From Deuterostichococcus epilithicus (lineage: Eukaryota; Chlorophyta; Trebouxiophyceae; Prasiolales; Stichococcaceae): DNA of 64,000 nt. Every line of letters begins with the position of its first letter. The stretch's first letter is position 1. This document shows, piece by piece, positions 4,491-28,595 of this stretch. A program made the position numbers and the translations under genes. Below the pieces are notes generated by a model, which did not search any database, was not told the origin of the DNA, and worked only from the letters and a program-made list of their open reading frames with translations. The stretch spans positions 2,454,530-2,518,529 of the forward strand of contig JAVTLE010000023.1 of the NCBI GenBank assembly GCA_033439295.1. The letters run 5' to 3'.

Positions 4491-7400
4491 TCAGCGACGG
4501 CGGCCGCGCTGGGAGCCGACCGTCGAATGGCTGATGACCAGGTGTCCGCCCGCCGCGTGCACGCCAGTCATCGTGAAAGCCCGTACCTGCAGATTCGGAT
4601 AACAATCACGCCACTTCACACGCTGCATAAGCGACTTGAGACACCGCTGACAACAACTCGAACTTGACACATGCAACAACAGCGTCGCAGATGCCTGATC
4701 AGTGGGGAAAGACCCTAGGGAAAAGGCTCGGCAGCACCCTCACCGCCTCCTCAGGCCTCTCGAACTCCACGAAGGCAAAGCGTTTGGGCACCCGGGTGTC
4801 AGGGAAGGTCGCCAGGCGGATGTCCTTGATGTTGCCGCAGCGGCCCAGCGCGCGCCGCAGCTCCGCGATGATGCCCTGGAGGCAAGTAAAACAAGTGCAT
4901 GTGTAGAGCCCGGAGCCCGCATTTGTGTCTGGTCTGTCCCTGCGGCCTCAGAAGGGGTGCACCCGCTTCTGCAGTAGCACCACCATGCAAGAGCGGCACC
5001 TCCTACGTCCTGGGCCACAAGCAGTCAAGCAGGAAATGCTGACAGCAAGTGTTGTAACCGCTGCCGGCGTCCTTCAATGCTGACAATGATGACGACTCAA
5101 AACCTGCAGACCGATAGGGTGCAGCGCAGCGCCCTGAGATGATGCGTTGTTGATGGTGGAGGCTGCTTTACACTGGTCTCATTTTCCGACGCACCATGTA
5201 GCCATAGGCCTGCTTGAAGCCAGTCACATGAACCGATGGGTGGAAGGCGCCTGCATCAATCATATGCCACTGCTTGCACTAGCCAAGAAGAGTGCTGCTC
5301 ACCCTTCCCAGGACAGCAGGCAGGATTGCGGTGCAGCTGCTGCAGCTGCATGAGAGGGGCGGCGCGGGCAAGGGCGCGGGACAGTGTCAACTCTTGCAGA
5401 GGCGAACAGCCCAAGCACCGCAAGCAATCGTACCCGCTGGGTGCTGGCCGGAAAATGCGACCGGCTCATAGCGTCGACCCGCATCTGCGGCAGCACAACG
5501 ACATGCTGTTGCATTGAGTGCCCCTCGCTCTGCAGCGCGTCGGCGGTGCGACCAACTCGGGACTGCTGTTTGACATCAAGCTAGCAGGCGCCGCCAGAGA
5601 GAGATAGATATAACACATCGATGGCGTTGCCGATCCCATAACAAGAAGCTTGCACGTTGACGAAGGGCGGCACAGGCACTGGCGCTTGTGGGCATACTAG
5701 GGAAACAGGCTCATAAATATAGGTACTGCCGACGGCAAAGTTTTGACTCACCGAAATTGGTGCGGGGACCGCTGGAGGGGCGGCTCCGGCTGCGGCTCCG
5801 GCTGCGGGTGCGGCTGCGGTTGCGGCGGCGGCGGCTGCGGCTGGCACTGCGGCTGCGCCGCCCTGAGGAGGACACAGTCCCCGAATTCTCGCCAGCGCCC
5901 GTCTCACGGGTGCAGCCATGTGGCCCACAGGTTCGGAAGTTTCCATGCAACATAGCCAGCGCGCCCTCGAGACTCAATAAAGACTCATAACACATTCTGC
6001 ACCCCTTCGCACACGCAAAACACAAACAAATTTCCAATCAAGCTCGTCACACCACCACAATGAGGCGCGCCTGTGCGTTGCCCGCTCCCCTGCCCTGCGC
6101 CAGCAGCGCCACCTCCATAGTCAGCCACGTCGGCGCTGCCAGGCCACGGCGGCGACGAGACCGGCGACACCGAGCGGCGCGACTGTGACAGCAGCGGGAG
6201 CAGAAGTTGAAACCTCTTGAGATGCAAGGTGATCTTGAGATGCAAGGTTCGAGTGAGCGAGGCGAGGCCGGGGAGGCAAAAGGCAGTTCCAGTGCAATGC
6301 CAAGAAGCAGCAAACAGAAGCGTTCTGTAACGAAATGCCGTGGAGGCGACAGTCTGGGATGTCAAGTCCGATGCTTCGAATTCGAACCCGAATTAAACGT
6401 TCCGCAGCTGACACCTCGGACACGGGCGACAGGTTGTAGTCCAGCATGAGCGAGGTGCGCTCCCCCGACTCGCGGGAAGTGGTCGGACGACCCGACAGCT
6501 GCAGGGCTGACGGCCGCACCGACTCTGCAGGCGGCCGTTGCGTCAGTGCCGCCGGCGCGTCAGCTGCAGCAGGCGGGGCGAGTGCTTGCGCCGGCGTCGC
6601 CACTGCAACTGCCGCCACCCCTATTTCTGCCAGGGCGGGGCCTGCGGCGGCGGCGGCGGCGGCGGCAGGCGCACCCGGCAGTGAAGCTGCAGGCGAGCCG
6701 GGCGGTGGCGGCGGCAAGCCGCCGTGCTCGCCGCTTGCGCCGGGCTTCGGCACATCAGGCTGAGGCAGCGACGGCGCTGGTGCGGCACCGGCAGCCTCAT
6801 CGTCTCCCGGCTTGCGGGAACCTGCGAATGCAGGCCAGCTGGAGGAATATCCTCGAGATGGTGCACCCCAGGGCCACCTGGCAGCACGGCAGCAAGGCAC
6901 CGCAGGAGCGCACACAGGGACACATGTGACAGGTCAAGCACACCTGTGCCGTTAAGCTGCCTCAGGTGCGGAGGGATGTGAAATGCCATGGCGCCTCCGG
7001 TCTGCTCGCCTGCCGCCTTGGCTCCCTCGGCCTTCCTTGCTGCAGCTGCACCACGAGCAACAACATGTGTCAGAAGCACAGGGAGTGTTGGCCGTTTGAT
7101 GCAGTGCCATGCACCAGACGAGCGATGCCAGTAGGGGTACAATGCACCGTACGACAGGCTATGCTGATCTCCGATCGACAATTGCTACATGGGTCGAGAC
7201 TTGGTCTCACCCATGCGGCGCTTGCGGTCCGCTCGAGCCCTGTCTCTGGCCTCCTTCTCGGCCGTGTCTGCGAAAAAAGACATGGCAACGGATTGTGCAC
7301 CTCGGGCTTCATGGCGCAGGAATTCTGCAGTTCATGCTGCTGATTGCGAGTCACGCCATTCGATAGTAATGATGCAAACTCAGTCATCGGCAAAGTCGTT

Positions 7401-8180
7401 GGCACTTGCCCTTGATGATGTCAGCCATCTCGCAGCTGCGGCTCCACAGCAGGCCAGCGCACTCAAAGGCGATGTACTTGTCCCAAATCCAAGGCGGTTC
7501 TGCGCCAGCAGCAGGCGTCAGATGAGGTATCCCGTCCTTGTTCTGGCGCCTTGCAATGGAGGCAATCCGCTGCCGAAAGTGCTGACCGTTCAGCCTCACA
7601 GCCAGCGGTTGCAGGCCAAATGTGCTGAGCGTGCGGGCTCACGGCCGGTGGCTGCAGATCATTTCCGATTGCAGCAGATTCAAAGCTGCAGATTTGGCTC
7701 CCAGCAGGTTTGGCAGGGCAGCATCCGCAAAGCATGGCGGCGCTGCACCCTGGAGCAGTCGCCACAGAGCAAGATCCGGGACAATACTGGGGCGCCATCA
7801 TCAGATGGTTTCAGGCTATCGAGGCTGTCAGCAGGCCACCAGTGCAGGATGAGCCGAGCAGCCAGAAGATCCCAGGCTGCTGCGTTCTGAATGTCCGAAA
7901 AAAAAAGGGAAAAAAAAAGGACCGCAGCTCCGGACCCACCGATCTCCCAGTGCTCGGCAACCGCCTGGATTGTCGGGAACAGGCGCCCGTGGTGACTGCC
8001 ACAGCCGGCAGGGGCGGCTGCGCCTTCAACGCCTACGTCGAGGCACTCGCTGCAGGAGCACTCAAACTGGACCGCCTCGTCAGGCGCCAGCTGCCGGCTC
8101 ACAGCCCGCTTCGCCACGCCGAAGATTCTGCCCAGCGCCATGCTGGGCAGCACCAACGACGACTCGTGTAAAGATGCCAT
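4491..8180 (-). CDS. Paralogue A: CxCxxC-domain, RS-rich and C-terminal RRM protein
   Basis: Ten exons chain in phase: 8180-7940, 7499-7410, 7267-7211, 7039-6944, 6821-6415, 6182-6053, 5862-5752, 5250-5195, 4875-4744 and 4586-4491, about 471 residues. The N-terminus has ALGRIFGVAKRAV, then FECSCSEC, AEHWE and EPPWIWDKYIA. An Ala/Pro linker with RESGERTSL follows, then an arginine-serine run (SRTRSRSRSRSRP). The RRM has RNP2-like VHVTGFKQAY and RNP1-like KRFAFVEF, and the chain ends in SQRGRRR. The order suggests an RNA-binding nuclear factor of SR type. The N-terminal domain resembles the SAND/Tify-binding class (CxCxxC then paired W/H), which is inference only. The intron after 7410 has GC-AG ends (GCAAGT). 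The gene is an inverted paralogue of 24538-28595 with matching intron phases, but is shorter and lacks the long Gly-rich tail. Confidence 0.8.
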
Positions 8181-8667
8181 CTTTGCCGCTGACCTAACCG
8201 CTGCCTTGACGAGCGCGTGCGTGCTCCATATGATGCAGCACCGCAGGCTGACCCAAGCTGCAGGTGCGGTCTCCGCGTAGCTGCAGAGTGTAATGGCTTT
8301 GTTGGGACGGCCTCGAACATGACGGAAGGTAACGCCGCCGATTAAAACCTAAGTGGTCAGAAAATACACACAAATTCCCCGAAGCTAACAAATTGCCTAT
8401 GCATCACCCAAAATGCTGAGAATCGCTCGCACACCACGAAAATTGCTGTCTTCACGTCTGGCAAACACAAAAACCTGGTGCGAGCGGCTCTACAACCGAG
8501 AAGTAAGTACGCAGCCCTGAACCTGGAAAATTAGCTGCAGCCTCGCTGTCAGGCTCGATCAAGCAAGGCTGCTCAAAACATTGTCTCACCATTAGTACAG
8601 GTGCGCGACAATACAGACGCGGGTGCGCTGATACAGCTGACAAAAGTTGGCGGCGCTGCCAGCGTCC
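8181..8667. other. Gap upstream of paralogue A
   Basis: This region lies between the stop of the NST1-like gene and the start of paralogue A, both on the minus strand. It probably contains the NST1-like 3' UTR and the paralogue A promoter. No coding exon is seen. Confidence 0.45.
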
Positions 8668-11600
8668 TCAGACCAGCATTGTGGGGATTGCCGTGCGCCC
8701 CATGCCGCCGGCACCGCCAAAAAGCGAGGCGAAGCCCGCCGGCATGGCACCGGACCAGGGGCTGCCGCTTGAGAGGCTGCGCTTGTCGGCGGCCTGCTGG
8801 TTGGCTGCCGCAGCCGTCGGGAAGTTACAAAACAGCGAAAACCCGGCGTCCAGCACGCCACCGCAGTTCCGTGCGCCGCCGAGGTCTTGTGCGCCGCCCG
8901 CGCCCGGCAGCGCCCCAAAGTCCTGGAAGAAGCTGGCCGGCGCCGCAGCCGGCGGGTGGGTGCCGTCAGGCTGCGGCCTGGCGACTGGGCCGATCGGCGG
9001 CATGCCCCCGATGCTGAGGCCGCCGGGGTTGAGGGGACCGGGGTGCAGGCCGCCAGAGTGTAGGGCGGCAGTGTGCAGGCCGACAGCGCTGTGACCCGCG
9101 AGCGGCGGCGAGCCGAAGGACATGTCCGAGACGGACGCCAGCGACTCGCGCGAGGCGGACAGGCTGAGCGCCATGCCTGACTCCTCGCCCCACAGGCTGT
9201 ACTCCGCGCTGCTGCGCCGGCTGGCGCCGCGGCCGCCGCCCTGCGTGTGACACGGCGTCTGCGGCTGGTGCTGCGGGTGCTGGCTTGAGGATTGGCCCAC
9301 AGAGAAGCCTGGCGGCGCCTGCCTCGAGAAGGGCGCCGCTGCCCCACGTTGCGGCTGCTGCAGCTGCGGCTGCTGCGCGGCAGACGGCGGCTCAGCCCGC
9401 AGCCGCGCCGGCCACGGCGCCGGCTGCACCGGCGCCAGCGCCGTCGGCGAGCAGGTGGCTGGCTCGCCATGCTGCGGCAGCGAGGGCGCCGGCACGGGCC
9501 AGGCGGCAGGCGCCAGCGGCTGACCTACTGGCGATGCCTCGTGCCCCGGCGCCGGCAGTTCGTGCCCTGTCACCTGTGTGCCGGCCGCACCCGCGACAAC
9601 GTCTGCCCACAGCGACTGCTTCGCGACGCAGCGCTGCTGCGGCAGCGGTGACGGCTGCTGCGGCGGTGGAGGCAGCCGCTCGGCTAGTGGCGGCGTGAGC
9701 TTGCCTGCTGCAGGCCCTGCATCGGCCGTGCCCGCCGAGGCAGGCCGCCGCGATGGCTGCGACGGCCGCCGCGGACCGGACTTGCGGCTGCGCTGCTGAA
9801 CCTCCCACTGCCCCTGCTCCTGCTCGCTGCCCTGCTGCCGCTCCCAGGGCGTCTGCTCGGCAGGTGACAATGACAGCACATCGCCGCTGTCTGAACTCGG
9901 CGTGCTGCGGCCGTCACTGGGTGCGGCGCCCCACGCCTCTTCAGCCGGATGGCGGCGCGTGCGCGGTGCTGCGTCTGCGGCTGCACCTGCCGCTGCCTCC
10001 CGCCGCTGCGGNCCGCCCGAGCCGGGGCGCCCGCCGCGGTGGCAGCGGCCGCCGCCGGCAGGGGCTCGCCCGCCTTGGTGGGCGTCGAAGGTGCCTCGGC
10101 ATCGCCGCCGCCGGCGTCCCGAGCTGGCGCCTTGGCTCGGATGGGCGGCAGCGCCGACGGCTCGGCAGCACACACGGGCTCGGCGGCAGGTGCCGGATCG
10201 GCTGCGGGCGACTGTGCGGCGGTGCTGCTCTTCTTGCGGCGGCGGCTGCGGCCGGAGCGGAGCGCAAGGCGCTTCTCGTCCTCGGCCACGAGCTCCAGCA
10301 GTTCCACCTGTGCAATGATGATCAAAGGGGTTCCTGCACGCGTTCAGTGGCGGGCGCAGAGTAGCGAGTGAAGCACATCCTGACTGCGACAGCCTGTTGT
10401 TCGTCGCACGTTGGCGATTTGTGTGTCTCGGCGGGGCTGACATGGTAGGTGTCACGCTTGGCTGTCATAGCAACAGCAGATGCCAGACTGATGTGGGACG
10501 CGCCTCAGCCTGACGGGCGTGCACGTCGAGGAAGGCGTTGCGCAGGCGCGCCTCCAGCAGTTCATGGCTGAGCGACACCAGCAGCAGAAGCGCGTTGTGC
10601 CCCGCCGTCTGTTCCCGAAATGCCACCTCCACCTGCAGACGAGGGATCATTGTATATTAAGCAACAACGGGAAGTCGTCCGATCTGCTGCCCACACCAGT
10701 CAGCAGTCTGCAGAACAGGGTCGGGCGAGAAGATCGCGCAGCAGCTTCAGAAAGCGCTGTCAGTCGACCCAGGGCTAGGCATGCCCTTCAAGTAGGTTTT
10801 GCTGTGCAGTGCATGTCTCGAGGCGGCAGGTGGGCAGTCACCTGCGCCTTGAAGATGAGGATGACGGCGTCGAGCAGCGCCTCCTGTGCCAGCTCTGGGG
10901 TCTCCGCATGGCGCACAGCGGCGGCATCGTCTCCCTGTCCATCTGCACCCTGTGCAAGTGGACGCAGCGAACTCTGTCATTGAAAGGACTGCACGTCTCA
11001 CAGACAACTAACAACGAACTGGCAAGCAGGTCGGACAGCTGCGGTGGGGGGCCGTGGGCCGGCTGTGCTTGTGCGCTCCGGATCATGAAGCAAGACACAA
11101 CATTCAGCTCGGCGGCCCTGCACGTGCCAGGTCAGCGGTTTTTGGGATCTGAGTTACAGGCGCACCTTAAGGTCCTCGATCTCTTCGGCCTCTTCCAGCA
11201 GCACTGCGGCGTCGGTGCCCACCAGCTGCACCGTCGCGTCTGTCACCGCAAGTGAAAAGCCCTCGCACACCGGCAGCAGCGGCACCGCCGGCGGTGGCAC
11301 CAGCGCCACCGCGGCCTCGCAGCCGCCGTCCATTGAGGCGCGGTCAAAGCCAGCGGCCCTGCGCCCCGCGGCGAGTGCCAGCTTGTACTGCGCGAGCACG
11401 TTGTAGCGGCAGTCCTTGCAGATGCGCAGCTGCAGGCTGCGCGCACAAGGGAAAAAGCACGTGTCAGCTCCAGCTTGCGCTTCAGACCGAAGGCAGCAGA
11501 ACACAACCAGCCATTCAGATTTGCACACAGCTTTAGGCACAATGCGACGAGGCATGCCAACTGCAGTGCACTGCCATGGACCTGGCACATTCCGGAGTAA

Positions 11601-13108
11601 AGCGACTTGTGACGGCGTGGTGTTGTGCTTGCGAGTCACCTGCAGCAGGAGTCCAGCTCAGCCTCGAAGTCGTGGCGCGGCAGGGTGAAGAGGGCCGCCT
11701 GGTGCTCCGACGGCAGCTGGCCCCAGTACGCCAGCAGCGTCTCGGGGGACACCCGCGTGGTGTGCAGCGCGCACACCTTGCCGCTGCGCCGCGCGTTGAA
11801 GCCGCTGCCGCACACGTCGCCTGCGCACGAGGACTCAGCCATGAGCATGTGAGTCGCAGTCCCGATTGCAACGCCAACGTCAGCGCACGTCTCAGCGTGG
11901 GGCATATCGAGCACCAAAACAGGACGTGCTGCTTTACGTGCTGCTTCACGAACTTTACCTGCTGTGCAGAACTGCAAGTTTCTTGACCGCTCCCTCGCCT
12001 TGCTCTGTGCAAACATTTCGAAGGGGCTGCCCTGCAGCATCTTCTCCTCCAACGACACCGCCTTTGCGTCTGCCGTCAGCCCCAGAAAAAAGTCCTGCAA
12101 GGTGACAGACAGGCGGCCATCAGGGCTTGACTTTCGCCTCAGGGGTATGTGTGCCAAGGCTCCTTGCTGCTTTGCATGGATGAACCTCATCGTCGTGTGC
12201 ATTGCTGGTGGCGTCCACGGCGCATCGCACACGGCATGTGTATGTATGTAAAGCACCTGGCAGGCTGGGCAGGCCTTGCAGGCCGCGCAGCCGTCGCCCT
12301 CCGGGGCGCCGTTGCTGCACCGCAGCTCCTCATACCTGCACGTGCAGCAGGGTGCATTTTTCTGAGATCGGATCTACTTCAGAAGGGGAAAAGCCATGCA
12401 AGCCCGCTCTTGAGACATCTCGATTATCTTCACGGCTCCAAGGTGCGGAGGTCGTCATTGTGTGTGCCTCCAGGATGGGTGACTCTGCCATGACCTCAGG
12501 TACAGCGCACGACCTGCATACTTGTGCTGCCAAGGGTGCATGCAAGTACAGCAGCCTGTAGCAGGCGGGCAGGCGCTTACCTGAGAGCGAACAGCCCGAA
12601 ACAGCGGGAGCAGTAGCGGTTGCGGATGGCCTCGAACCTGCAGGTTCGCGGTTGTAAGTGAGATCGTCCAACACATCAGGATGCATGCATTTACTGCTCT
12701 AGCGGGGCCGAGACTCTCATCAGCCTACATCGAGGCGAGAGGTTCATCCTGATATCGACCGAACGCGCAATGCAGCGCCTGTGGACGAACCGCAAACAGC
12801 ATGACAAATGGAATCAGACGAAAAGCTTACAATGTCCGGCGCGGGATAGTGCACAGCAGGCGCCGCCTGACCAGCGGCAGGTTATGCCAGAACGAAGCCA
12901 AAGCTTTGTCGTCTGCGGAATGCCCGCCCCCTTCCGCCGCCGTGCAGATGTGGGCACACTGGGCCGAGTGGCAACAAGTCGCCATAGGGGGCATCTCAAA
13001 AAGCTCTCGAAACCCGCATTTGCTGTCTGCAGCCGAGCATGCGAGGCAGATGCCGCCTTTCTGGCGGGGGCCAGTGCTGAAGCAAGCTGAGAGCGTCCCC
13101 GAGATCAC
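8668..13108 (-). CDS. Plant stress-response NST1-like cysteine-rich protein
   Basis: The family is land-plant and algal and of uncertain function. Exons: 13108-12831, 12637-12581, 12335-12257, 12094-11959, 11820-11640, 11436-11166, 10949-10842, 10632-10510 and 10307-8668. Matches to plant homologues are ASFWHNLPLVRRRLL, then TLFEAIRNRYCSRCFGLF and ICKDCRYNVLAQYKLAL. Further on come ELAQEALLDAVILIFKAQVE and FREQTAGHNALLLLVSLSHE, followed by a basic helix rich in R and K. Cys pairs (CSRC, CAACKACPAC, CKDC) suggest zinc binding. The last exon is about 540 residues of Pro/Gln/Ala/Ser-rich sequence ending TAIPTMLV, with short ordered motifs such as KQSLWADVV and SAEYSLW. An undetermined base at 10012 coincides with a change of open frame. 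The intron after 10510 appears to be GC-AG. The ATG at 13108 is the first in the open frame; a later one at 12994 is possible. The gene is head-to-head with CTR9. Confidence 0.85.
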
Positions 13109-13830: not shown

Positions 13831-16133
13831 ATGGACGGGGAGACGATGTACATCCCTGTATTCGACAGCGAGGACGTCATCTCGGTCCCCATCGGGCCGG
13901 ACCATGCCGCCGACCCCGAAGAGGTCCGTGCGCCGCGGCCTGCCGCCATCCACAGCCTGCGCCTTTCATGGGCGCCGTCACCTAACAGCCACACGACGCA
14001 GTGAAAAATTTGCAGCATCCCTTGACTATGCATGAACGATGTAGGCAGCGTGCCTTGACAGGGCCTCTCCATCAAAGTGAGGGCACATGGACGCAATCAT
14101 CGTGCAAGCATTGTGTGCCATTTTCTACCTGCCTTGCGACACGGCTCCACATCTGCCTTGCGACACCATGTGCTGTGCGACATGTCCAGGTGCTGGAGTG
14201 CCTCAAGGCGGAGGAGGCACCTCTGGCGCTATGGCTGGACTTTGTGAAGGCGTACCTGGCGGCGGGGCACACGCAGCATGCCGAGAAGATGCTGCGCGAG
14301 GGAACCAGCACAGAGGTGAGGCCAGCTGGATCCGCGGAGTTTCAGCTGGAGGTGGAGGTGGTTGTCTGACGCAGCGCGGCTGCGTGATGCCGCGTGCTGG
14401 CGGGGCCACATGCACGGCTGCCGGATCCGCTCCACTCATGCTGGCACAGATCTTTGATGCCGTCCCTCCGGTCATCCGAATCCGAATGTCAGAATGGCGC
14501 ATTCGATTCAAATGCCCAGTGAAAACCTGTGGAACTCAGCCAAACAGGTGAAGAAGCACTTAAACAGCCAGGAGCGAAAGGAGGATTGCGCAATGTTGCC
14601 CGGTCTTCGGACCTTTGGATGATGATGAACCCTCATTGCGAGACTTGGGCAATCAACTCAGCCAGGTTGCGAACCCTGCCGCAGGTGGAGCAGCACTTCA
14701 GCAGCCAGGAGCGGGAGGAGGACCGCGCAGTGCCGCAGCGGGTGCAGCTGCTGTGCGCTGCGGCGGCGTTCCAGACCGCCCTCGGCCGCGGCGAGCGTGA
14801 CCGCGGTGCCCGTAATGAGCTCTTCGCCAAAGCCGCGGGGCTGCTGACCCAGGCTCGGGCTCTGGACCACCGGGAGCTGGCGCCCTACCTCGGCACCGCG
14901 CAGCTCGCGCTCGCCAAGGTGACCTTTATGTGTCTCTGATGTGCGCCGTGTGTGGGTGCCTTTCTGGAAGCTGGCGGCCCGCCTCGGCCCCGCACCAGCT
15001 CGCGCTCGCCAAGGTCTTGGCGACCTTTTCGTGTTTCTCTGCACCATGCGAAGTCTGTAAGGGGTGTTGGAGGCCATGCCCGTCGGTCAAGCTTGCGCGG
15101 CGGCAGGTCAGCGCGCCTCCCAGGCGCCATACCGCTGAGATGGTAGCGCCGCGCCCGTGGGCAGCGCCGCGCCCCTGAAACCATCGCACATCGCACGAGC
15201 GGTGCTGCAGCTCGTCCCAGCAATGCCCTGTGCAATCGAGCTGTCAGCTGGGCGAGAGGATCGACGGCTGCGCTGCTCCACCCTGGTGTGATCTAGGGGA
15301 CTGAGGACGTTTACACCTGCACTGCTTTCTGCATGCGCCAGGGTGACACGGAGGGCGCCAAGCGGGAGTACGAAAAGGCGGCCAAGCTGACGGCGGGCGG
15401 GCGGCCCAACATCGCGCCGCTGCTGGGGCTGGCCACCATCGCCTTCAACCAGGGCCGCTACGCCATCTCCCTCGCCATGTGCGCCTCCTGTAACAGTCAC
15501 ACCATAGCAAGTGCTCCTGACCTGTCAGGCTCGTGCAAAATCTTGTCAGAGACTCTTCAAAGTCAGTGCCCGGGGGTTGGTCAGCCAAGGCGCCTGACGC
15601 AATGCCGATTCGACATACAGTGCGCGCGTGCTATATTACCTGCAGGTTCCGCAAGGCGCTCCGGGACCACCCAGGCGCGCCGGCGGAGGTGCGGCTGGGC
15701 ATTGCGGCGGCGTCATTTCGGCTGGGACGGCTGGACGCAGCGCGCGCCGCCTTTGCCCGTGCGCTGCAGCTCAACCCGCGCTGCGTGCCGGCGCTCGCGG
15801 GGCTGGCGGTGCTGACGCTGCACGCGCCGCCCTCCGCAAATGTGAGCGCCGCCGCATCATGCGGCAGTGCTTGTGTTGCTCCGGAAAGTTCTCCCCGCGC
15901 GGACACGAGAGGCCTCGCCGCCAAGACGTCTGCAGATGTGAGCGCCGGTGGTCATGCGGCTTGGGATGGGCACCCGGGAAGCGGTGGTCAGTGCAGGAAG
16001 TTCAGGGCATTGTGGACCCGGACGAAGGCGGGAGCTCTGATCCGCACACAGAGCCAGCGACGGCATCAGCATCGGCATGGGAGCCGGAGTCAGATTCTGA
16101 GGCGCTGTTTTTTTGCATGCTGGCGCCGCCGCC

Positions 16134-16209
<76 letters not shown>

Positions 16210-19200
16210 CAGCAGCTGACGTTGTGCCTGCTGCCCTAACAGCGGCTGACGGAGGCGCTGCAGCAGCTGTGCCACGCGTACGACCTGGCGCCGGACAGCC
16301 CCGTGGTGCTCAACCTGCTGGCGCACCACTGCCTGCTGCGCGGTGACTACGACAAGGTGGACTATGTTGTTGCACCGTTTCTTGGGTGCCGTTTCGCCCG
16401 TCTTCCCCATCAGCAGCGCCTCGCATGCCTGCTGGGCAGTGGGTCAGCGCTGCAGGGCAGCCTTGCGCCCACCGCTGCCTGCTGGGCAGCAACTTGAGGC
16501 AGATGTGATACTACGTCTGTGAGGTTCTCGCTTGGTACAAGGGGATTTGGCACTGTCCCTGAACACTGGTCCGCTCTCCGAAGGTTTACGATCACGACAC
16601 CTGTGCGAGGCAGCTGACTGGACCTTGCTCAACCATGTGGCCAGGTGGCGGCGCTGGCAAAGTCGTCGCTGGAGGTCGCAGACTCTGACAGGGTGCGTGC
16701 GGACGCCGAGCAGCTGTTGGCGCGCGCGGCGCACGCTCAGAATGACTACCTCGGCGCATACGCCCACTACCGGCAGGTGGGCGGTGGACACTGAGACAGC
16801 GCTGCGCAAACTTGCCGTGTCGGTAGCGAGCAGTTGGACCCGGGCTCTGCCCCTCACAGCGAACGTCCTGCGGGGGCGCTCCTGCCAGCTGCCGGTGTCC
16901 TGCCCGGCGGGCCAGCCCGCAGGGTCACTGCCCAGCAGGATCGTAACGTGAGCAGTGCGTCGGATGTGCGCAGGCGCTTGCCATCGACGGGCAGCAGGCG
17001 GTGGCGCAGTTCGGCCTGGCGCAGATAACCCTGCTGCAAGGCGAGCTGACCAACGCCATCAGCCTGCTGGAGGCATCGCTAACAGCCGCGCCCGCCTGGC
17101 CAGATGCCCTCACGGTGTGCGCCCTCTGGTATACGAAGTTTTGCGCCAGTCCCTACCGTGAGCTGGGGAGTCCAGTCGTCGTCCTGCTTGCCGGCACTCC
17201 ATACCCGGACGCTAGCCGGGATTCGCACTGGGCACTGGCCACCTGTCGGCACTGTCATGCCCTGCAGCAACAACACCTCTCGCAGAGCCGCTGCCACCTG
17301 CCCTGTGCTGGGGGCCGTGCAGAACCGCAGGCTGGCTTGCAGCAGTTTGTGTTCACTCTTCCCAGCTCAGCGCCTGCGCCTCAGCTCAGCGCCGCTCCTT
17401 GCGCGCAACCACAGGTGCTGGCGGGGCTGTACCCGGCGGTGCCAGGCAAGCGCAGCGCGGCGGTGCCTCAGTTCCGGGAGGCGGCCACACGCCCCACCGC
17501 CTCTGGCGACGTCTGGTTCATGCTGGCCGAGCTGCTCGCGCCGACAGACCCCACAGGTCTGCTCACACGCTGGTTGTCAAGCCCGTCAATGTGTGGCGTG
17601 TTCGCCTGCATCATATCTTCCGCAATTTCGATGCATCATGCACCCCGCTGCGCAATGCCATGGCTCCGAGTTGCAGCGACCAAATGTCGAGCGGTCCCGT
17701 GTCAGCATGCGCAGTGGGTCTGTCATCAAACCGGTGTTTCATGCCGCAGGCGCCCTGAAAGCCTACGACAGGGCCATCGACCTGCACAGACGGGCGTCGC
17801 GTGCGAAAACGCTTGTCAACGGCTTTGGCGGCGCTGAGGACGCCGCCCCACAGCCGCCAGCGGTCCCTGTGCGGTTGCTGAACAATGCGGCGGTGCTGCA
17901 CCTGCGCTACGGCAACCTGCCGGCTGCGCTGCCGATGATGGAGGAGGCTGTCGAGGTGGAGATGCTTTTCGTCTTGTGCAGAGATCACCATGGCAGTCGA
18001 TGCCACGCGCTCCTGTGCCTGCTCTGAGCACTGACTTGGCCGCTCAACGGCTAGGCCATCAGGCAGGCTGCACTGGAACTGCAGCATCACGTCATCAGGC
18101 ACACAACTCACCAAGCAATTTTCGGTATTCGAAGCCCAAGTGACACAACCAGCAATCGCTTCCCCTGGACCTTTTTCCCATTGTCGCTGGCAGGGCGCGG
18201 CTGAGGGGCCAACGGCGGCGCGCCTGACGGTAGGCTTCAATATGGCGCGCATGCGGGAGGCCGCTGGAGACGTGCAGGCAGCTGCTCGGGAGTATAAGGT
18301 GAGCAAAGACGGATCAGCTTCTCCTCGCCTGGCTATGTTTGGACTGCGCCACACTTCCCGTGCAGTTGGCACCATCTATGTGTACTTGCCCCCCTCCTAC
18401 CTCTCTAACCTGTGACCCTTCCGCTGGGGCGACCATGCGGCATGTCAGACGCTGTAGCAACGAGCCAGACGTGCACAACGGCCATGTCACACCGTGCACG
18501 ATCAGCAGAGCCCACAAGCCGGAAGCTTCACCCACCAGGAGCCGCCCCGCCAGAAAACGCCTCGCACAGCCTGTGGCACCGCCGCGCGCAGGCGATGCTG
18601 AACAACTTTCCGGACTACACGGACTGCCTGCTGCGGCTGGCGGCCATCGCGGCGCGCTGCGGCAGGCACGCCGAGGCTCTGGGCCACCTGCGGGCGCTGC
18701 TCAAGCGGAAGCCAGGGGATGCCGACGCCCTCGCCTCCCTGGGTGATCATCTGGATTTGCTCGATTACAGGGTCCGCAGATAGACAGGCCTCTCTGTCGT
18801 TGGATATGTTCCTTTTTACAGCAGGCGAGCGTGTGAGGAGTCACTGTCAGCATCGAGGCAGAGAACACTGCCTCTGTCCGGACTGTGGGCGCCCTGCCAG
18901 CACGGTCGGCAGCATCTGCAGCATGCAACCTGTCTGCCAGCCACGCCGGAACGTCTCTTGTCATGCAACCCCTTTTCGTCATGCTCAGTGGGAACTTGAC
19001 AGACGAAGGCGAATTCGGAAGCCGGGGAGCCTTCGTGCAGCTGGTGGAGGCGCGGGTGGCCTGGAGGGCTGCTGATGCCCATTGTCATGCTCGTTGCGGT
19101 GCACATTGAGGTTTCATGCTGCCCCGCAGGCCAGCTGCACCTGCAGGCGAAGGAGTACTCTGAAGCGGGCGAGGTCTTCGAGCAGCTGGTGGAGGGCCGG

Positions 19201-22200
19201 GAGACGCGCGACGATGCCTACGGCCGCCTGGGCCTCGCCAACCTGGTGCTCGCCAGCGTGCCCGCCGACAGCAACAAGGTGCGCCGCCTCCGTGATTCAA
19301 TCAGGCACCTCTGCATGAAACCCCCAGTGAAACTCACAAAGTCTGACGTGGCATGTCCGAGCGGTGAGGCAGCCGTCTGGTCCCCCGAGGGAGGCCCCGG
19401 CAGGGCCGGGCAGTGGGGGCGACCGTCAGCGCTGGCAGAGACCCCTAGAGCACCTCATGGGAGTGGATGCCTCACTTGCGCACATGCGACACCCCTGCGC
19501 CTGGTCGCTCAAAGCCGCAGCAGCACGGAGCGGTTTCCTCGAAAGCCACATCGCCATGGTGTTAGGCTGCTGCCTGTTCCAGCAGGCTCGGCACCATCCG
19601 GTCCCAATTGGCTCGTCTCGCAGTCCGAGCCTGAAAGCTGCATGCCGTCGCAGGAGGAGGTCAAGGTCAAGCGGCGCACGCGACTGGCGCAGGCGCTGAA
19701 GCTGTATCGAGACATCCTTGCCCGCCACCCAGGCACGCTCGGACCTCAACTGCCTGGAGGGGACTGCTTCTGCTGCCGCAGCCCCTGCTTTCGCGCTGCT
19801 GAGATGGCTCCGCTGAGATTCTGAGGAGGTCCTGCAGGACCTGTCATTGCACCATCACAAAAGTTTTACAGCCCGCCGCTGGTCGACAGGCAACGTGTAT
19901 GCGGCGAACGGCGTCGGCGCCGTTCTGGCGGAGCAGGGCCGGCTGGCGGAGGCAAAGGAGGTCTTTAGCGAGGTGCGAGGCGCGAGGCGCTGGGCCGTTC
20001 CCCCCGTTTGAGTATGAAATTCCAAGCAACAGTCTTTCGAAGAGGACTGGTTTGTGTTCTCAAGTAACCAGTGCTTCACGTGCTCTGCTCAGAGCCCCCT
20101 GAGCCTCAGACACACGGATCCGAAGGAGCCTGCCAGGTGGAGTGGCTCTCACAGAGCACCGACTCTGGCTCCCGGGCCCCAACACAGCCCTCGGGGTAAG
20201 TACCATCCACTTACCCTGCGGACCGTAACATGCTCTGATACCATGCGCATTGTACGGCGGCAACAGGTGCAGGAGGCTGCGACGGCAGAGGGGCGGTTGC
20301 GTCTGCCGGACGTTTGGGCGAACGCCGGCGGCGTAGCGCTGGCAATGAACAACACCGACGCCGCGGTGCAGCAGTTCACGACCGCGCTGCGCCGCTTCCA
20401 CCACAACAGCGAGCACAGGCTGCTGTGGTGGAAGGCTAGGTGGGGCTACCCCCAAAGCGCGACCAGCTTGTGCTGTACTCTGCATCCAACTGTGCNAACC
20501 NCCCCTTGCTCGGCGGCGTGGTCTGCTCAGCCGCAGTGCTCACCAGTCCGAGAAAAAGCAGCAGGCAGGCAGGATGCCCTTGCTGCGATGGCCTCTCAGA
20601 TCAGTCTGTCAGGTCAGATCAGCCTGTCAGGTCAGGGCAGAATGGGGCACTGAACTCGCACTGCAGGGCCTTCTACGATGCGGACGACCTGCGGGAGGCG
20701 CGCCGGTGGCTGCAGAAGGCGCTGCACCTGGCGCCAGCGCAGCCGCTGCTGCGCTTCAACATCGCCGCCGTCATGCAGGTGGGCTGCTCCGCCCTCGGGG
20801 ACAGCTGCCAATGTCGTAGCGTCGTCCCCCGTCCCCAGGCCCGAGTTGTGGCCGCCACTTGTCGCGGTTTGCAGCTGTTGCAATGGTGATGAGTTTCTGC
20901 TTCGGTGCACCACTGCAAGCCCGCAGAAGCACTGCTGCCGCCGCTTCATTCAGCAGCTCGCGGCTGAGCCAAGATGTGGTATCGCGACCCATGGCGCTGA
21001 TGCTGGTCTGGCTTGCACGCTGTGCAATAAGGCACTGTGCTGCCCCGGAAAACATCAGCAGCCTTCACCTCGCCATGCCCGCCTGCTCCCTAGCTGTCCC
21101 ATCATGTAGCAAGGCGCGGTTGCGGGCACTGCGGGAGGAGCGGCCGACAACAGAAGCAAGGCGTATGCCTCCGACTGGGACTGTGACCCCCGCTCCCGCT
21201 GGTTCCCGCAGCAAGGCGCGGTGCGCACGCTGCGCAAGGAGCGGCCACCGGGCGACACGACCAAGCTGGAGGACTATGCCGCCGCGGCAGAGGACCTTAA
21301 GAAGGCGTACGACAGCTTCGTGCACCTGAAGCGGCTGCCGCCGGCGCGCAGCGGCATCGAGATGAAGAAGCTGGACGCGCACATCGAGTTCTGCTCCAAC
21401 ACCTTCTCCAAGGCGCAGGTGCTCGGCAGCGGCATGGTGGTCTCTTGGTTTGGCAGCTAAAGTTCACCCGAGTTGATGACATCGACATTGCGGGGCGGTG
21501 CGTGCTTGGGGGCGTGGGGAGGGGGACGCAACCACAGTCGCGGCATCCCGGGACCTGCAGCTTGCAGCAACGCCTGGGTGGCGGCAGCCGCAGTCACAAC
21601 AAGTGTCGGGTCGCATAGACAAGGCAAAGCAGATTCCCTGCTGCATGCCATCCCTTGCGGCTCCGCCTCTGCCCACCCTCCAACCCCAAGGCACTGAAGA
21701 TCCACAAAGGTAATACACATCGGGACACGTTCCGACCTTGTGCATCGGCTGCGGCGCAGGAGTATGTGGAGGCGGCGCAGAAGGAGCGCACCATCGTGGA
21801 GGCGCGCCGCAAGGAGCAGGAGCTGCGCATGCAGGCCGCTGAGGCCGCCAAAGCCGCCGGTGCGCGTACCGCTGCTCGGCTGGCAGCTCGATCATGCAGT
21901 GCCGCTAAGGGTGCACCACCAGACCGAAGGCCAGGCTGCACTTCTCTGGGTGCTCTAGAGGGTGCTTGACCTGCGGGCTGGCGAGTGCACACATGCCTCC
22001 TCTCAGCCTGCGCTCGCGAACGGCCCTCCCGGCAATCGCCCGTCTCTGTTCACACTGATCGATCCAAGGCCACATGCTCCTCCTGAACGCTGACCGAATC
22101 GTCAAGCATCAACCGGCGGTCTGGCACCCACAGAGGCGAAGCGGGCAGAGGCCATGGCGGCAGCGGCGCGGCGGGAGCGGGAGCAGCGCGCCTCGGAGAC

Positions 22201-24142
22201 GGTCGCCAAGCTGGAGCGCCTCAAGGCCGGCTGGAAGGAGAGCCACACGCTGCAGGCGGCGGCCGCCGCCGGCGACTCCAGCGCCGTCGGCAAGAAGAAG
22301 GTGGGTGGCGCACGCGCACAGCTGAGAGCACCATGCGTCGTCCTTCTGGTGTCGGACGAGCAGAGGAGGCACGGCCTTGATGGGGAACTTGTCTGTCTTT
22401 TGGTGAACCCCTTGCGGCTCTGGCTGCTGCAGGAGCAAATTTTGGCATGCAAGCAGTGTGCAGCTCAGCGAAGGATGCGCCAACGCCCTGGCGCAGCGCC
22501 CGGGGGCAGACGCCTTGACCTGCTGCACGGGGGCGCGCCGCAAGCTTCCTGGCGACTGAGCGGATTCGTGCCTCTCCAGCGGGGCAGCAAGGCGGATGCG
22601 GAGCTGGACGCGCCGTTTGGTGAGGAGTCGGGCGACTCCAGCGCATCGTGCAGAGCACGTTTTCAGGGTCTGTGGGTCCCGCCCCGCAGGGCAGCAAGGC
22701 GGATGCGGAGCTGGACGCGCTGTTCGGGGAGGAGTCGGGCGACGAGGACTACGACCCCTCCGCCCCCGACCCGCTGGCGACTGGCGGCGCCGGCGGCGCC
22801 GACTCCGGTGACGAAGGGGGCGAGCCGGAGTACGCCTCCGAGGGCGAGGCCGCGCGTGAGGAGCTCGCCGAGGTGCGCGCCCTGCCTGGCATCGCGTCAC
22901 CAGGCCCTCCTTGTGGAGGCTGACGCTTGTCGAGGTCCCTGGAATGTGGCTGTCTCCAAATGACTGCCTCGTGCGCCGAGGTTCCTGAGAGGCAGCTGTC
23001 CCGAGACGACTGACTGTGCCCTGAGGCTCCTGAGACGCAGCTGTCCCGAGACGACCGACTGTGCCCTGCTCGAGTTGGCCGAGGCACTGTAGCTTGGCTC
23101 AGCTGCGGTCATGTCGGGAGCGGCACCTGGACGCCACTCCCGGTGTTTAGCTGAGCTGCTCTTACCCTGCAGGCCGGCCTGCTCGCGGATGACGAGGACA
23201 CAGAAGGTGGCGTGTCGGGCAGCGAGGGCCGCGCCAAGGCCAAGAAGAAGAAGCGGAAGCCGAAAGGCGGCAAGGGCGTCGACAAGCAGGCGCGGCACGC
23301 CAAGCCGAAGCAGGGCAAGGCTGCGGCGGCCAGCCCCGGCGGCCGCCTCAAGCGCCACCGCGACACAGGTGCGACTCTGGCTGGTATTGGTCCCGGCATC
23401 TGCTCTTGGGCAGCCTGCTCATCGTTGCATCTGGTTTGCGTCCGTCCCCTGTTGACCTTCACCCTGCACCTCTCAGGCGCGGGCGCAGGCGACGGCACCG
23501 CAGCCGCCGGCCCGACCAGGAAACGACGGATGACTTCAGCCACCGGACCCCCACGCTGCATGTCCCTGAGTGCAGGCGCGGAGGACGGCGCCGCGGTCGC
23601 CGCTGGCCTGGAGGACGAGGAGGAAGCTGCGCCCCTGGCGGCGGGCGCTGGGCTCGAAGACGAGGATGAGGACGAGGACGCCGCAGGGCCCGCCAAGCGG
23701 GCGCGCAATGCGTCGCTGTTTGACGACTCGGACGAGGAGGCGGCGCAAGAGGAGGAGGCGCAGCCAGATGCGCACGCCAAAGCGGCAGGGCCGGCGGATG
23801 TGCAGATGGAGGATGCACCACCAGAGGTCAGGCAGTCAACCTGGTTCACGGAGCCTCGCTTTGTCTGGTTCGGGAACAAAACATGTCTCCGAGTCCTTTG
23901 GAGACTGCAAAGTCCTACTTGGAGAGATCCTGCACAGAGGCTGCGGCTGCAGCCTGGCTCACAGCAGTGCAAGCGCTCTTCAGTTTCAATGCCCCTGTGC
24001 TTGCTGTTGCGGTGGGCCGGCAGGAAGGCTCACGATTCGGCTTGTCTTGTGGCAGGAAGGCGCCGCGGCGCCTGAAGAGGAGAAGTCGCCACTGGACGAG
24101 GGACCCGGCATGGACGAGCTGTTTGGCAGCGATGACGAGTGA
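13831..24142 (+). CDS. CTR9: CTR9, TPR subunit of the PAF1 elongation complex
   Basis: CTR9 is the scaffold of the nuclear PAF1 complex, which travels with RNA polymerase II and promotes H2B ubiquitination and H3 methylation. I chained 24 exons in phase, from 13831-13923 to 24056-24142, about 1220 residues, normal for the family. The N-terminus is YIPVFDSEDVISVPIG, then tandem TPRs such as APLALWLDFVKAYLAAG and PNIAPLLGLATIAFNQGRY. Later TPRs include YAANGVGAVLAEQGRLAEA, VWANAGGVALAMNN and RARWLQ-type repeats near 20700. A charged helix (KRAEAMAAAARREREQRA) and an acidic/basic tail ending GMDELFGSDDE follow, as in other CTR9 proteins. The intron at 19733-19889 is GC-AG. Two undetermined bases (20496, 20501) lie in an intron. 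A TGTAA, the usual chlorophyte poly(A) signal, is at 24290. Several introns carry partial copies of adjacent exons. Confidence 0.96.
14548..14600 (+). repeat. Decayed copy of the start of CTR9 exon 3 inside intron 2
   Basis: The bases following CAG at 14545-14547 repeat the first ~52 bases of exon 3 (14685 onward) with about nine differences. The shared core is AGCCAGGAGCG followed by AGGAGGA. The spacing is 137 bp. The copy keeps an acceptor-like CAG but drifts in sequence. It looks like a local tandem duplication that has lost coding constraint. Confidence 0.7.
14980..15030 (+). repeat. Partial copy of the end of CTR9 exon 3 inside intron 3
   Basis: The exon 3 end, with its donor CAGCTCGCGCTCGCCAAGGT (ending 14920), recurs about 89 bp downstream as AGCTCGCGCTCGCCAAGGT. 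This duplicates the donor context within the intron. Confidence 0.65.
15834..15970 (+). repeat. ~94 bp tandem duplication at the CTR9 exon 5 donor
   Basis: The donor region (ATGTGAGCGCC then CATGCGGC) starting at 15840 recurs at 15934 with small changes. Two copies of the donor context therefore sit in tandem, and only the first is in phase with exon 6. Confidence 0.6.
16135..16203 (+). repeat. (CAG)23 microsatellite in CTR9 intron 5
   Basis: There are twenty-three perfect CAG triplets, followed by TAGTAG and two more CAGs. The run lies 39-108 bases upstream of the exon 6 acceptor at 16242. It is intronic because the flanking exons (ending 15841, starting 16243) join in phase without it. The reading-frame runs of Ser, Ala or Leu that it produces are artefacts. 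Confidence 0.9.
20594..20636 (+). repeat. Short tandem repeat in CTR9 intron 16
   Basis: The unit GATCAGTCTGTCAGGTCA recurs immediately as GATCAGCCTGTCAGGTCA. It lies in the intron that also contains the two undetermined bases, so the local assembly may be imperfect. Confidence 0.7.
21110..21149 (+). repeat. Decayed copy of the start of CTR9 exon 18 in the preceding intron
   Basis: CAAGGCGCGGT followed by a CTGCG..AGGAGCGGCC pattern repeats the first ~40 bases of exon 18 (from 21212) at an offset of about 102 bp. The copy is preceded by TAG rather than the real acceptor CAG. Confidence 0.7.
22583..22636 (+). repeat. Near-identical copy of the start of CTR9 exon 21
   Basis: The first ~54 bases of exon 21 (from 22690) recur 107 bp upstream with about three differences. 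The copy encodes GSKADAELDAPFGEESGD, against GSKADAELDALFGEESGD in the exon. It is preceded by an acceptor-like CTCCAGCGG. It could be an alternative exon or a recent pseudo-exon. The real exon splices in phase from 22300. Confidence 0.8.
22977..23075 (+). repeat. Two-copy ~49 bp tandem repeat in CTR9 intron 21
   Basis: The motif GCAGCTGTCCCGAGACGAC, with flanks GAGG(C/T)TCCTGAGA and TGACTGTGCCCTG, appears twice in tandem with few differences. Confidence 0.8.
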
Positions 24143-24537
24143 GGAAAGGAAGCTGTTGATATGGCGCGGCGCCGGGCTACACTTTGCAGATGCACATGTG
24201 TCGAGCCAGATGATTCATGTGCACATCTACGGCAATTTGGCCTGCTTTCACGTAAAATGAATGCTATATACTCAGTTGCCTCCTCAAAGTGTAAATGGTT
24301 TTATCAGGCCTCGATCAAAAAGATCCAATCCCTTGCCCACCTGCCCCTGCTACAGCGCCTAATCGGGGTAGCTCAGTATTGCAAGGTGAGCTTCCAACAC
24401 GGCAACTTCCAAGTCTGTCCGTCGTGCATGCGAATTGGCCGCAGCGCTCAACAGTTCGCTCAGCGCATTGCGGGCCCCCTCCGAAAGTGGCGGATTGATC
24501 GGCGGCGTTGGGAAAGGCCCGTCTAGCGGCAGACAGC
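24143..24537. other. Gap between CTR9 and paralogue B
   Basis: The gap contains the CTR9 3' UTR, with TGTAA at 24290, and then the probable promoter of paralogue B. No exon with family resemblance is seen. Confidence 0.45.
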
Positions 24538-27500
24538 ATGTCCGTCGTGCTGCCCGAGGTGTCGCGCGGACGCATTGTGGGTGTCATCAGCCGCGCTGTA
24601 GCCCGTGGCGATGGCAACGATGGCTCCGGCGAGCGCCACTTTGAGTGTCGCTGCAGCGTCTGCCTGTCTAGGGGCGCTCCGGAGGCTGGCGATCTCTCAC
24701 CAGATGGCTGCGAGTTCCCCAGTATGGAAATGATGGCAGAGCACTGGGCTGTGGGTATGGGCATCGTTGAACTAGGAAAAAAACCATTTTTCGAATTCCA
24801 ACTTGTTTCAAATTTCAACTGTTCCAAATACGCCCGATGGCACCTGAACAACTCACTCAGCTGCTCAATCACGATGAAACGGCTAGCCTTGTTCTGTCAC
24901 AACGTCCTGCCGCCGCCATGCAGAGCCGCCATGGATGTGGGATCTGTACCTGGCGACCGAGGACGCCGCGGGCGGTCTGTGGGGCCGAAGCCGCGAGATG
25001 GTGTCCCTCATCGAAGGTGCCGTGCGCCCGTGTGCTGCACGGCACAGGCTGGTTGCGGCATGCTCTGCACTGCCTGCGGGCTGGCTCCTCTTGACGCAGC
25101 TCCGTGGCTTCGCCAGCCCTCCACCTTCCGTTCGACACCTGCTGAACCCTGCAGCGCTGCCATCCTGCCTCATGACCTGGCCTGGCCTAACACAGCGCAA
25201 CCCCGCTTGGGTCACGCGGCCACGCCAAGTAAGGTGCACAGACAAGAGCAATATGCCAGCATGCTGCTGCCCAGGCATGGCCTGGCTCCGAGATACCCCA
25301 TGTGTGCCAGTGGCGGGAGATCCGCACTGCAGAGTGTGCCGCAGCAGCGCCACCTGCCGCATCACACATTTGCTGCCTGACCTCTCGCTCTGCATGCAGC
25401 ACGGGAGCTGTCCACAGCCTTCCAGCTGGCTCCTTTTCACTGATGGACTCCACACTCTGACAGGCTTGTACATTCCCGTTTCTGTAGCCACGAAGCGGCA
25501 TGAGGCCAAGTCAAAGCGCGGCAGCAGCGCGCCGCGGATCAAGGCACGCGCTGGTGCGCCTCGCGCTGATGACATGGGCAGCTCCAGCCGCGCGGGTTGG
25601 GCCGCAGACACAGCAGCTCGCAAAGCCGCTGGAGCGGCAGCGTCGGCGGCGGCAGCGGATGCGCCCAAAGACGCTGCTCCCGATGACAAGGCAGCACACG
25701 CAGCGACTCGAACCAAGGCCGCAGCCGCCGCGGCTGGCGAGGCTGCGGAAGTGTGCGCCCCAGTGGGCCCAGCAGACGCACGTATGGGCGCCACTCCCGG
25801 CAAGGCTGCAGAGGCAAGCGCGCCAGAGCTGAGTGCAGGCATCGCAGCTCCTCGCAGGGCGGCAAGCGCTGCGACCGGCAGCAAGGCCGCAGTCACAGCT
25901 GCTGCCAAGGCTGCGGAGGCTGATGCCCACAAGGCGCTGGACACTGCTGCCAGCAGCATGGCAGAGGTAGAGAAGGGCAAGACGGCAACCACGCCGGCGG
26001 TGCCTGAGCAGGCTGTCGGGCAGGCTGCGCCGCCGTCCAACGACAAGCAGCCTCAGGCTGCAGCTGGCAGCAGAGGCCCTGCTGTCGAAGGTAAGAGGCC
26101 AGCAGTCCTCAAGGTGCTGAATCTTGGTGGACACCGGATTTGCTGCCCAGTCCAGCTAGCATTGAGCATTCATTATGTTTTACATCTCCTCGTCATTGGT
26201 AAAGCAGAGGGGCCCGCCTGCGAGTGTCAGCACACCAGTGCACGTGGCGGGCATGGCCCAATGCGAAAACGCTCCCTTATACGTTTCCATTCCCCTTGCC
26301 TCTCATCAATGCAGGAGCACGGGACGCGGCGGCAGCAGCGGCACCAGGGCGGGACGACGTAAAGCGGGCTTCCTCAGCACCAGACATGCTCAAGAAGAAG
26401 TTGCCCTTTCTTGCCCCACAGAAGCTGCAGGGTGAGTGACGAAACAACAGGCAGCAGCATGCTTGTCCTCTTTGTAAGGCAGGTCCCTGCATAGTTCGCA
26501 GCTGCATTCACCAACCTTGGCGCTACTTGGCGCTCTCTTTGATTCTCCGTAAAATCTATTTACCCCAAGTGCTGCCGCTGGGGCATCAACTCCGCAATAG
26601 AGCTCCCGTGCTTGCTACTGGTTGTGATGCAACCGATGCACTGCTGCAGGGCTGATCGGCGCAGCAGGCTTCACCAGGAAGCCTTCAACAAGTTTTGCCG
26701 AGGCCGTCGCCAAGCCAGCCGCCGCCGCAGACGCCACGGCCGCTGCTGCTGAGGCGCCTGCTGCGCCCGAGCCCGCCTCCAAGACAGGCAGCGTCGCACC
26801 AGTTGAGGTAGTAGCGGAGGCTTTCAGCAAGCATCTGCCGGCGCCCGAGCCTCAGGATGGCAGACCAGAAGATACACCCGTGGCAGACGGGGTCCGAGCC
26901 GCAGTTGCAGCGCCAGCGCTTGTGCTGCGTCCCAGCTCTCCCGAGTCGGCAGCCAGCCCGCGGGGCAGCGCAGGCAGCCCGGGGCTGCAGCACGCGCCGG
27001 GACGGCTGCCGTCGCCGCCCCGCCGGCGCCGCCGCCTGCGCAAACACCACCGCCGCTCAGGTCTGCGCTCCTCTCTCTCATCGGCATTCAAAACAACTCT
27101 GGGGTCGCTCTCACGACAACCAGCTGCATTATCTCTTGACAAGCCTCAGATGTGGCAGCGCAATCGTGATTGGATGCGGCTCAAGTCGCAACACACAGCG
27201 CTGCTCGTCCGACACCGACGCTAGCATTTGATAGTGCAGTAAAGGCAAGTGCTTGTGGATGTGCAGGAGAGCGCTCGACAGTCAACGACGAGGAGGTGTC
27301 TTCGCCGCGCCGCCGCCACCGCAAGCGCAAGCGCCACAGCAGCGGCGGCGGCGGCAGTACCAGCCCTGACCGCCGCCCCAGCCGCAGCAGCAGCGTGCCA
27401 GCCGATGGCCGGTCAAGGAGCTTCGCAGGTGAGCGGCAGCCGCGGCGACCAAAACAAACACTACTCCATTGCTGCATATATGCCACCAGCGTGCACAGCC

Positions 27501-28595
27501 ATAGTACTGCTGTGCTTGCGGCACTCCTAGCGAGTTTGGTCGCATGCCGCTGCTTCTCGTTCCACAGGCTGTCCCGAGCTTGGCGTGTACCTTCCTGCAG
27601 GACTGCCGATCCTTGACAGGCGCCCGGGCCCGCCGCTGCACCGGCCCAACGAAACCTACTTCACGAGTGAGGTCACTGCATCACTCCTTGAGAGCCAACA
27701 GCTTCTGGCACTGCCTGCAATTGCTGCAAGGATGTGTAGATGAGATATGGATGCTTCGTTCGGCTGTTGGCTGCAGCCAAACCAGACACAGAGGCAAAAA
27801 CCATTCACGTGACGGGCTTTCAGCCAGCCTATGGCGCTGCGGTGCGTTACACACAACCAAACTGCTTCCGGCCCTGTCCCATGCCTGCCTCGACGTGCAA
27901 TGCGACTTTGGCGCTGCAGCTGCTGCTCATTAGGTTGTGGCGCTGAGGCGTACATGCAGACTTTGGGCCGACAGCAAGCTTTGAAAATTGGAGCAACCCC
28001 TGCAGCGCGCATACTGCCGCTGGCAATGCATTGTTGCGGCACTGATCGGTGCTGGTGCACCGCAGGCAATTGATGCGGCGTTGCGCGCGACATTCAGCCA
28101 GTGCGGCCGCGTGGACCAAGTGCGACTGTCCATCGACAACCTCCTCAACTTGCCGCGGCGATTTGCGTTCGTGCAGTTCGACACCCCCGAGGCCAAGGTC
28201 CGTTCGTTGAAACCCATTCCAGACTACGGCAGCTGCGTGCTGCCGCAGAATGCCTCAGAGTGCCGCTCGATCGCTACTGCGTGCGCTGCCATGAGTGCCA
28301 AGGCCAAGGATCGCTGCATATAGAGGAGCTTCACATCCTGTGCTTGTGAGCAATACTTTGTAAAGCGCCTTGCCTGCAGGATCAGGCGTTCAGGCTGGAG
28401 GGCACCTGGATGGCTGGAGGACGGCTGCGTGTGAGCGCTCATGTGGGATCGCGCATGGCTCCGCGACACGCGCAGTCGGAATTCGACCGCGGCGGCTACT
28501 GGGCCGCCGGCAATCGACATGGCAGTCCTGGTCGCGGCCGCGGCCCTCCTGGCCGCTTTGGAGGGCCGTGGCCCGCCCTCTCCGGTTGGCACTGA
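24538..28595 (+). CDS. Paralogue B: CxCxxC-domain, RS-rich and C-terminal RRM protein
   Basis: Ten exons chain in phase: 24538-24754, 24924-25016, 25488-26090, 26315-26431, 26650-27060, 27267-27428, 27568-27666, 27777-27841, 28066-28197 and 28380-28595, 704 residues. The N-terminus reads RGRIVGVISRAVARG, then FECRCSVC, MAEHW and EPPWMWDLYLA. A long Ala-rich low-complexity linker follows, then Arg/Lys/Ser-rich segments (SPRRRHRKRKRHSS, RRPSRSSS). The RRM has IHVTGFQPAYG as RNP2, RRFAFVQF as RNP1 and LRVSAHV as strand four. The tail is Gly/Arg-rich (GNRHGSPGRGRGPPGRFGG). Strong likeness in domain order and intron phase marks it as a paralogue of 4491-8180; the RNP1 exon is 132 bases in both. 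A role in RNA processing is likely from the RS and RRM parts. The N-terminal domain may be SAND/Tify-binding-like. All its introns appear to be GT-AG. Confidence 0.82.

Follow-up and report, generated by a model that had tools for sequence, protein, structure and literature searches.

An inverted pair of diverged genes in the green alga Deuterostichococcus epilithicus joins a conserved Cys/Trp domain to an RS segment and an RRM

We describe a pair of genes, A and B, in a 64,000-nucleotide stretch of the genome of the trebouxiophyte alga Deuterostichococcus epilithicus (assembly GCA_033439295.1, contig JAVTLE010000023.1, positions 2,454,530 to 2,518,529; hereafter the window). The evidence supports the view that A and B are two diverged paralogues in inverted orientation that share one architecture: an N-terminal domain with conserved Cys, His and Trp residues, a low-complexity linker, an arginine/serine (RS) segment and a C-terminal RRM. 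Judged from their sequences, we think it probable that they are locally duplicated copies, one of them inverted, of a nuclear SR-like RNA-binding adaptor whose N-terminal domain possibly binds zinc. What looks new is this N-terminal domain and not the order of the domains, because RS segments that precede an RRM are already known elsewhere.

The two proteins can be aligned at both ends. By BLASTP the N-terminal domains are identical at 51 of 110 positions (E 4e-24) and the RRMs at 37 of 88 (E 1e-12), and the corresponding alignment scores, 230 and 173, lie far above the highest values reached in 1000 shuffles of each segment (55 and 45, respectively). The original prediction that both genes encode the same architecture is thus supported, including the alignment of the N-terminal domains above background, a point singled out beforehand as one on which the prediction could fall. 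The linker gives no alignment signal, its score of 116 falling within the shuffles (mean 99, maximum 156, n=1000). Nei-Gojobori estimates of nonsynonymous (dN) and synonymous (dS) divergence are 0.44 and 1.24 over 100 codons of the N-terminal domain and 0.61 and 1.00 over 80 codons of the RRM; dS is near saturation in both, so that these values are rough, but constraint on the N-terminal domain looks at least equal to that on the RRM. At the DNA level little similarity is left between A and B, with a best match of 82 bases at 71% (E 4e-05), and the duplication therefore looks old. Along the window the order is A (-), a gene with no Pfam match in the pieces scanned (-), a CTR9 homologue (+) and B (+), which is the predicted layout of an inverted pair bracketing two unrelated genes in opposite orientation; neither bracketed gene shows similarity to A or B by tblastn. 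When both N-terminal domains and both RRMs were used as tblastn queries at E<=0.1 there was no third copy in the window, all matches being confined to the A and B loci and the lone extra match (E 0.023) lying on the opposite strand inside B. One event, a local duplication in which one copy was inverted, suffices to account for this placement.

The C-terminal domain is, on sequence evidence, a standard RRM_1 domain. RRM_1 (PF00076) matches A with an E value of 3.3e-08 (33.7 bits) when the C-terminal piece is searched and 3.4e-07 (30.5 bits) with the whole protein, and B with 7.3e-08 (32.6 bits) and 4.9e-07 (30 bits), all above the curated cut-off of 20.7 bits; searched at full length, A and B gave no match to a second Pfam family at E<=1. 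The HVTGF and RFAFV motifs begin at residues 404 and 447 in A and 578 and 621 in B, and RNP1 reads K/R-R-F-A-F-V-x-F, with both of its aromatic positions retained. Of the linker, RS segment and RRM that had been predicted to follow the N-terminal domain, the low-complexity linker and the RRM are present in both proteins, but the RS segment, pronounced in A, is weak in B. Viral contigs contained 76 pattern matches to the RRM, none of which was confirmed by tblastn.

The gene models on which these comparisons depend (Table 1) were made by hand from three-frame translations, donors and acceptors being picked for an open frame and, where possible, for a match between the copies. ATG and TGA codons were found at the starts and stops, and on the strands, originally claimed, and in each model the frame is open throughout with one terminal stop. 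The exon carrying RNP1 is 132 bases long in both genes, as predicted. Ten coding exons had been proposed for each gene, which agrees with our model of B, but our model of A has 11; a further exon in A, near 5330, was dropped because, on our reading of the translations, including it interrupts the frame that leads to the RRM. The intron phases are, in order, 1,1,1,1,0,1,1,1,0,0 in A and 1,1,1,1,1,1,1,0,0 in B. If the extra intron of A is placed in the RS region, a pairing that is our own, eight of the nine B introns have phase-matched partners, so that the predicted agreement at most introns holds under one pairing; it is not independent evidence, however, because the choice of splice sites in one copy was guided partly by the other and the linkers do not align.

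The N-terminal domain, whose predicted motifs FEC, AEHW and EPPW are present in both proteins (at residues 39, 75 and 81 of A and 35, 67 and 73 of B), carries in order C-x-C-x2-C, a fourth conserved Cys, a His and a Trp, EPPW.WD.Y, and a segment ending LW.RS.EM. It matches no family in Pfam or NCBIfam at E<=10, and neither single-sequence nor two-sequence-profile searches gave a credible match in the PDB. In the single-sequence search with the B domain, 10 of the 11 PDB matches at E<=10 came from viral envelope proteins, the best of them at E 0.022, and the other from a zinc finger (E 0.58). We take the envelope proteins, and with them the zinc finger, for chance matches, since the former cover only the Trp-rich half of the domain and are missed by the two-sequence profile, which at E<=10 matched one chain, a cytochrome (E 2.1). 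Pattern searches found 45 candidate relatives of the domain in viral contigs and 48 in prokaryote genomes, none confirmed by tblastn, a result that covers those two sets and says nothing about the spread of the domain in other algae.

It had been suggested that this domain is a divergent SAND (PF01342) or Tify-binding (TDBD, PF16135) domain, which would make the protein a chromatin-RNA linker. By eye, the order of C-x-C-x2-C, a P-S...H segment and a Pro followed by Trp or Tyr does resemble that of TDBD sequences. The likeness finds no statistical counterpart for either family: Pfam placed the TDBD and SAND sequences that served as yardsticks in their own families, whereas the domains of A and B matched neither at E<=10. 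In hhalign comparisons the domain aligned over 7 columns with TDBD and 10 with SAND, with no signal and as emptily as a control comparison of RRM with TDBD, whereas TDBD against SAND, itself a weak control, gave 31 columns (P 0.001, 21% probability). Scored against the profile hidden Markov models of the two families, A and B did no better than their own shuffles, of which 1000 were made for each protein. With the TDBD model, 757 of the 767 shuffles of A that got a score, and 376 of the 661 of B, equaled or exceeded the real protein; with the SAND model the figures were 240 of 725 for A and 641 of 657 for B. The PPW.WD segment is moreover predicted to form a helix, which argues weakly against a strand there. 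The power of these tests against a very distant relation is limited because the query profile contains only two sequences; even so, we regard a SAND or TDBD identity as unlikely.

A further claim, that the order of the domains is unusual, turns out to have been overstated. Canonical SR proteins are defined by an N-terminal RRM and a C-terminal RS domain (PMC3173450), and A and B, which likewise combine an RRM with RS sequence, reverse this order and have no RS repeats after the RRM. However, SR45 has the order RS-RRM-RS and resembles RNPS1 (PMC1868597, PMC6761909), and the RS domain of U2AF65 is N-terminal (PMC8635922). The long form of Acinus joins an N-terminal SAP domain, putatively DNA-binding, to an RRM in one chain; it differs from A and B in its RS-like domain at the C-terminus, and A and B have no SAP match at E<=1, their N-terminal domain matching no Pfam family at E<=10. 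The literature searches, judged from their listings, showed no paper on a protein with the architecture of A and B. Among the systems close in layout is SR45/RNPS1 of the ASAP complex, a presumed nuclear RNA adaptor with an RS-rich region N-terminal to one RRM, and it is conceivable that A and B are derived SR45/RNPS1 orthologues, with an N-terminal domain added and the C-terminal RS region lost. The shared order fits this idea, as would a possible resemblance of their RRMs to that of RNPS1, and so does the report that Chlamydomonas lacks SR45 (PMC1868597), which leaves its place in algae open. Neither A nor B has RS sequence after the RRM, however, and both carry the extra conserved domain. 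Among the solved chains listed when the RRMs were searched (one search with all 43 of its rows, two others with the best 60 of 253 and the best 60 of 93), the nearest include PUF60, RBMX and SR-type factors, and none is named RNPS1 even though an RNPS1 RRM has been solved (4A8X). On this evidence orthology with SR45/RNPS1 seems to us improbable, and we continue to favor an SR-like adaptor with a conserved N-terminal domain.

Several observations weigh against the adaptor that we favor. The RS segment of B is diluted, with 6 RS/SR dipeptides to the 16 of A. RNP2 usually has an aromatic residue at a position where A and B have His, and is to that extent non-canonical in both. The four Cys and the His of the N-terminal domain are invariant between A and B, which speaks for the adaptor but means little in a comparison of just two sequences. 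Fold prediction covered the two exon halves of the N-terminal domain separately and not the joined domain: the exon 1 half had a mean predicted local distance difference test score (pLDDT) of 42.8, a model of no use. Exon 2, weakly in favor of the adaptor, came out as a single helix (mean pLDDT 93.4, predicted template modeling score 0.46) when this 31-residue peptide was modeled by itself. Both gene models are predictions from sequence and, although all other introns in them are GT-AG, intron 2 of A requires a GC-AG pair (GCAAGT donor at 7410, minus strand) where its counterpart in B uses GT. Lastly, TGTAA, the chlorophyte poly(A) signal, is first found 1.5 kb past the stop of A and 2.5 kb past that of B, as compared with 148 bases past the stop of CTR9. 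These distances, together with TGTAA sites inside each gene (at 5172 in A and at 26473 and 28359 in B) and the failure of the linker to align, could also mean that the exons for the N-terminal domain and those for the RS segment and RRM belong to separate neighboring genes or transcripts. In both copies, however, the two sets of exons share one strand, follow each other in the same order and span no more than 4.1 kb, with a frame that in the models is continuous across 10 (A) and 9 (B) introns; the internal TGTAA sites are all intronic in our models (intron 9 of A and introns 4 and 9 of B), and the 28 and 27 sites on the two strands of the 64 kb predict one to two per gene in any case. We consider separate transcripts very unlikely.

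How a single protein of this architecture might act can be sketched from general knowledge of its parts. The RRM would be expected to bind RNA, as RRM proteins do, since both RNP1 aromatic positions are retained. The RS stretch and basic linker would, as in other RS proteins, give nuclear localization and contact splicing factors, and the N-terminal domain may bind zinc and dock a partner, be it another protein or chromatin. In this scheme A and B act as adaptors that bring the partner to nascent RNA, and SR45/RNPS1 and Acinus are thought to be adaptors of this kind. Local duplication with one inversion would have set the two copies around CTR9 and its neighbor gene. More tentatively, it is possible, if doubtful, that the N-terminal domain represents a new zinc-binding fold restricted to this lineage. 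It would tether the RS-RRM protein either to the transcription machinery or to chromatin, and the duplicated pair would be a co-transcriptional splicing adaptor of algae that has no plant or animal ortholog; the pair would gain interest if the domain did prove to be a new fold with such a partner. In any event, a conserved domain that our Pfam, NCBIfam and PDB sequence searches miss, and that accompanies a standard RNA-binding module, makes a well-defined target, and the two diverged copies provide a first list of its constrained residues. From its structure and partner one could tell if the alga links chromatin or transcription to splicing by a route of its own.

Table 1 Positions, within the window, of genes A and B, their parts and the genes between them
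Feature	Position	Strand	Details
Gene A	8180-4491	minus	ATG at 8180, TGA ending at 4491; 11 coding exons, 490 amino acids; hand-built splice model
Gene A, coding exons	8180-7940, 7499-7410, 7267-7211, 7045-6944, 6821-6415, 6182-6053, 5862-5752, 5484-5434, 5250-5195, 4875-4744, 4586-4491	minus	
A, N-terminal Cys/Trp domain	7410-8180	minus	about residues 8-112, mostly exons 1-2; BLASTP to B
A, RS-repeat exon	5752-5862	minus	16 RS/SR dipeptides in best 50 amino acids, residues 321-370
A, C-terminal RRM, exons 9-11	4491-5250	minus	Pfam RRM_1
Gene B	24538-28595	plus	ATG at 24538, TGA ending at 28595; 10 coding exons, 704 amino acids; hand-built splice model
Gene B, coding exons	24538-24754, 24924-25016, 25488-26090, 26315-26431, 26650-27060, 27267-27428, 27568-27666, 27777-27841, 28066-28197, 28380-28595	plus	
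B, N-terminal Cys/Trp domain	24538-25016	plus	about residues 2-105, mostly exons 1-2; BLASTP to A
B, exons 5 and 6, ending with diluted RS/R-rich segment	26650-27428	plus	6 RS/SR dipeptides, 50% R+S, residues 483-532
B, C-terminal RRM, exons 8-10, Gly/Arg/Pro-rich tail	27777-28595	plus	Pfam RRM_1
12-base word ATCGGCGGCGTT	8331-8342	minus	151-162 bases upstream of A start codon
12-base word ATCGGCGGCGTT	24498-24509	plus	29-40 bases upstream of B start codon
Gene with low-complexity and Cys-containing parts	about 8671-12373 (minimum extent)	minus	no Pfam match in pieces scanned
CTR9 (PAF1 complex) homologue	13831-24142	plus	hand-joined first exons match CTR9 chains, E 7e-09

A 12-base word, ATCGGCGGCGTT, stands upstream of both start codons (Table 1), and a third site with one mismatch lies at 38822. 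Of 1981 pairs of 300-base pieces drawn at random, 41 shared a word at least 12 bases long; the coincidence is thus only weakly above chance, and we have not retained the word as a promoter element or a relic of the duplication.

Between A and B, two single open reading frames (ORFs) of the CTR9 gene had no PDB match at E<=0.01, unlike its hand-joined first exons (Table 1), and at 10012, in the gene between A and CTR9, the sequence has an N. Neither Rfam families nor tRNA genes were found when the window was scanned for them. A Pfam scan of ten ORFs provided the domain matches for the neighboring genes: eIF3e (PF09440) at 938-1255 (plus strand, E 2e-28); the Vac14 C-terminal domain at 31149-32594 (minus strand, E 4e-34); DHHC at 40074-40376 (minus strand, E 7e-06, under the Pfam cut-off); and an ERO1 domain at 44019-44627 (minus strand, E 3e-16). 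A WD40 ORF at 46736-47491 (plus strand) has eIF3i as its best match (E 9e-15) at 55 bits, under the family cut-off of 200, and may encode a second eIF3 subunit.

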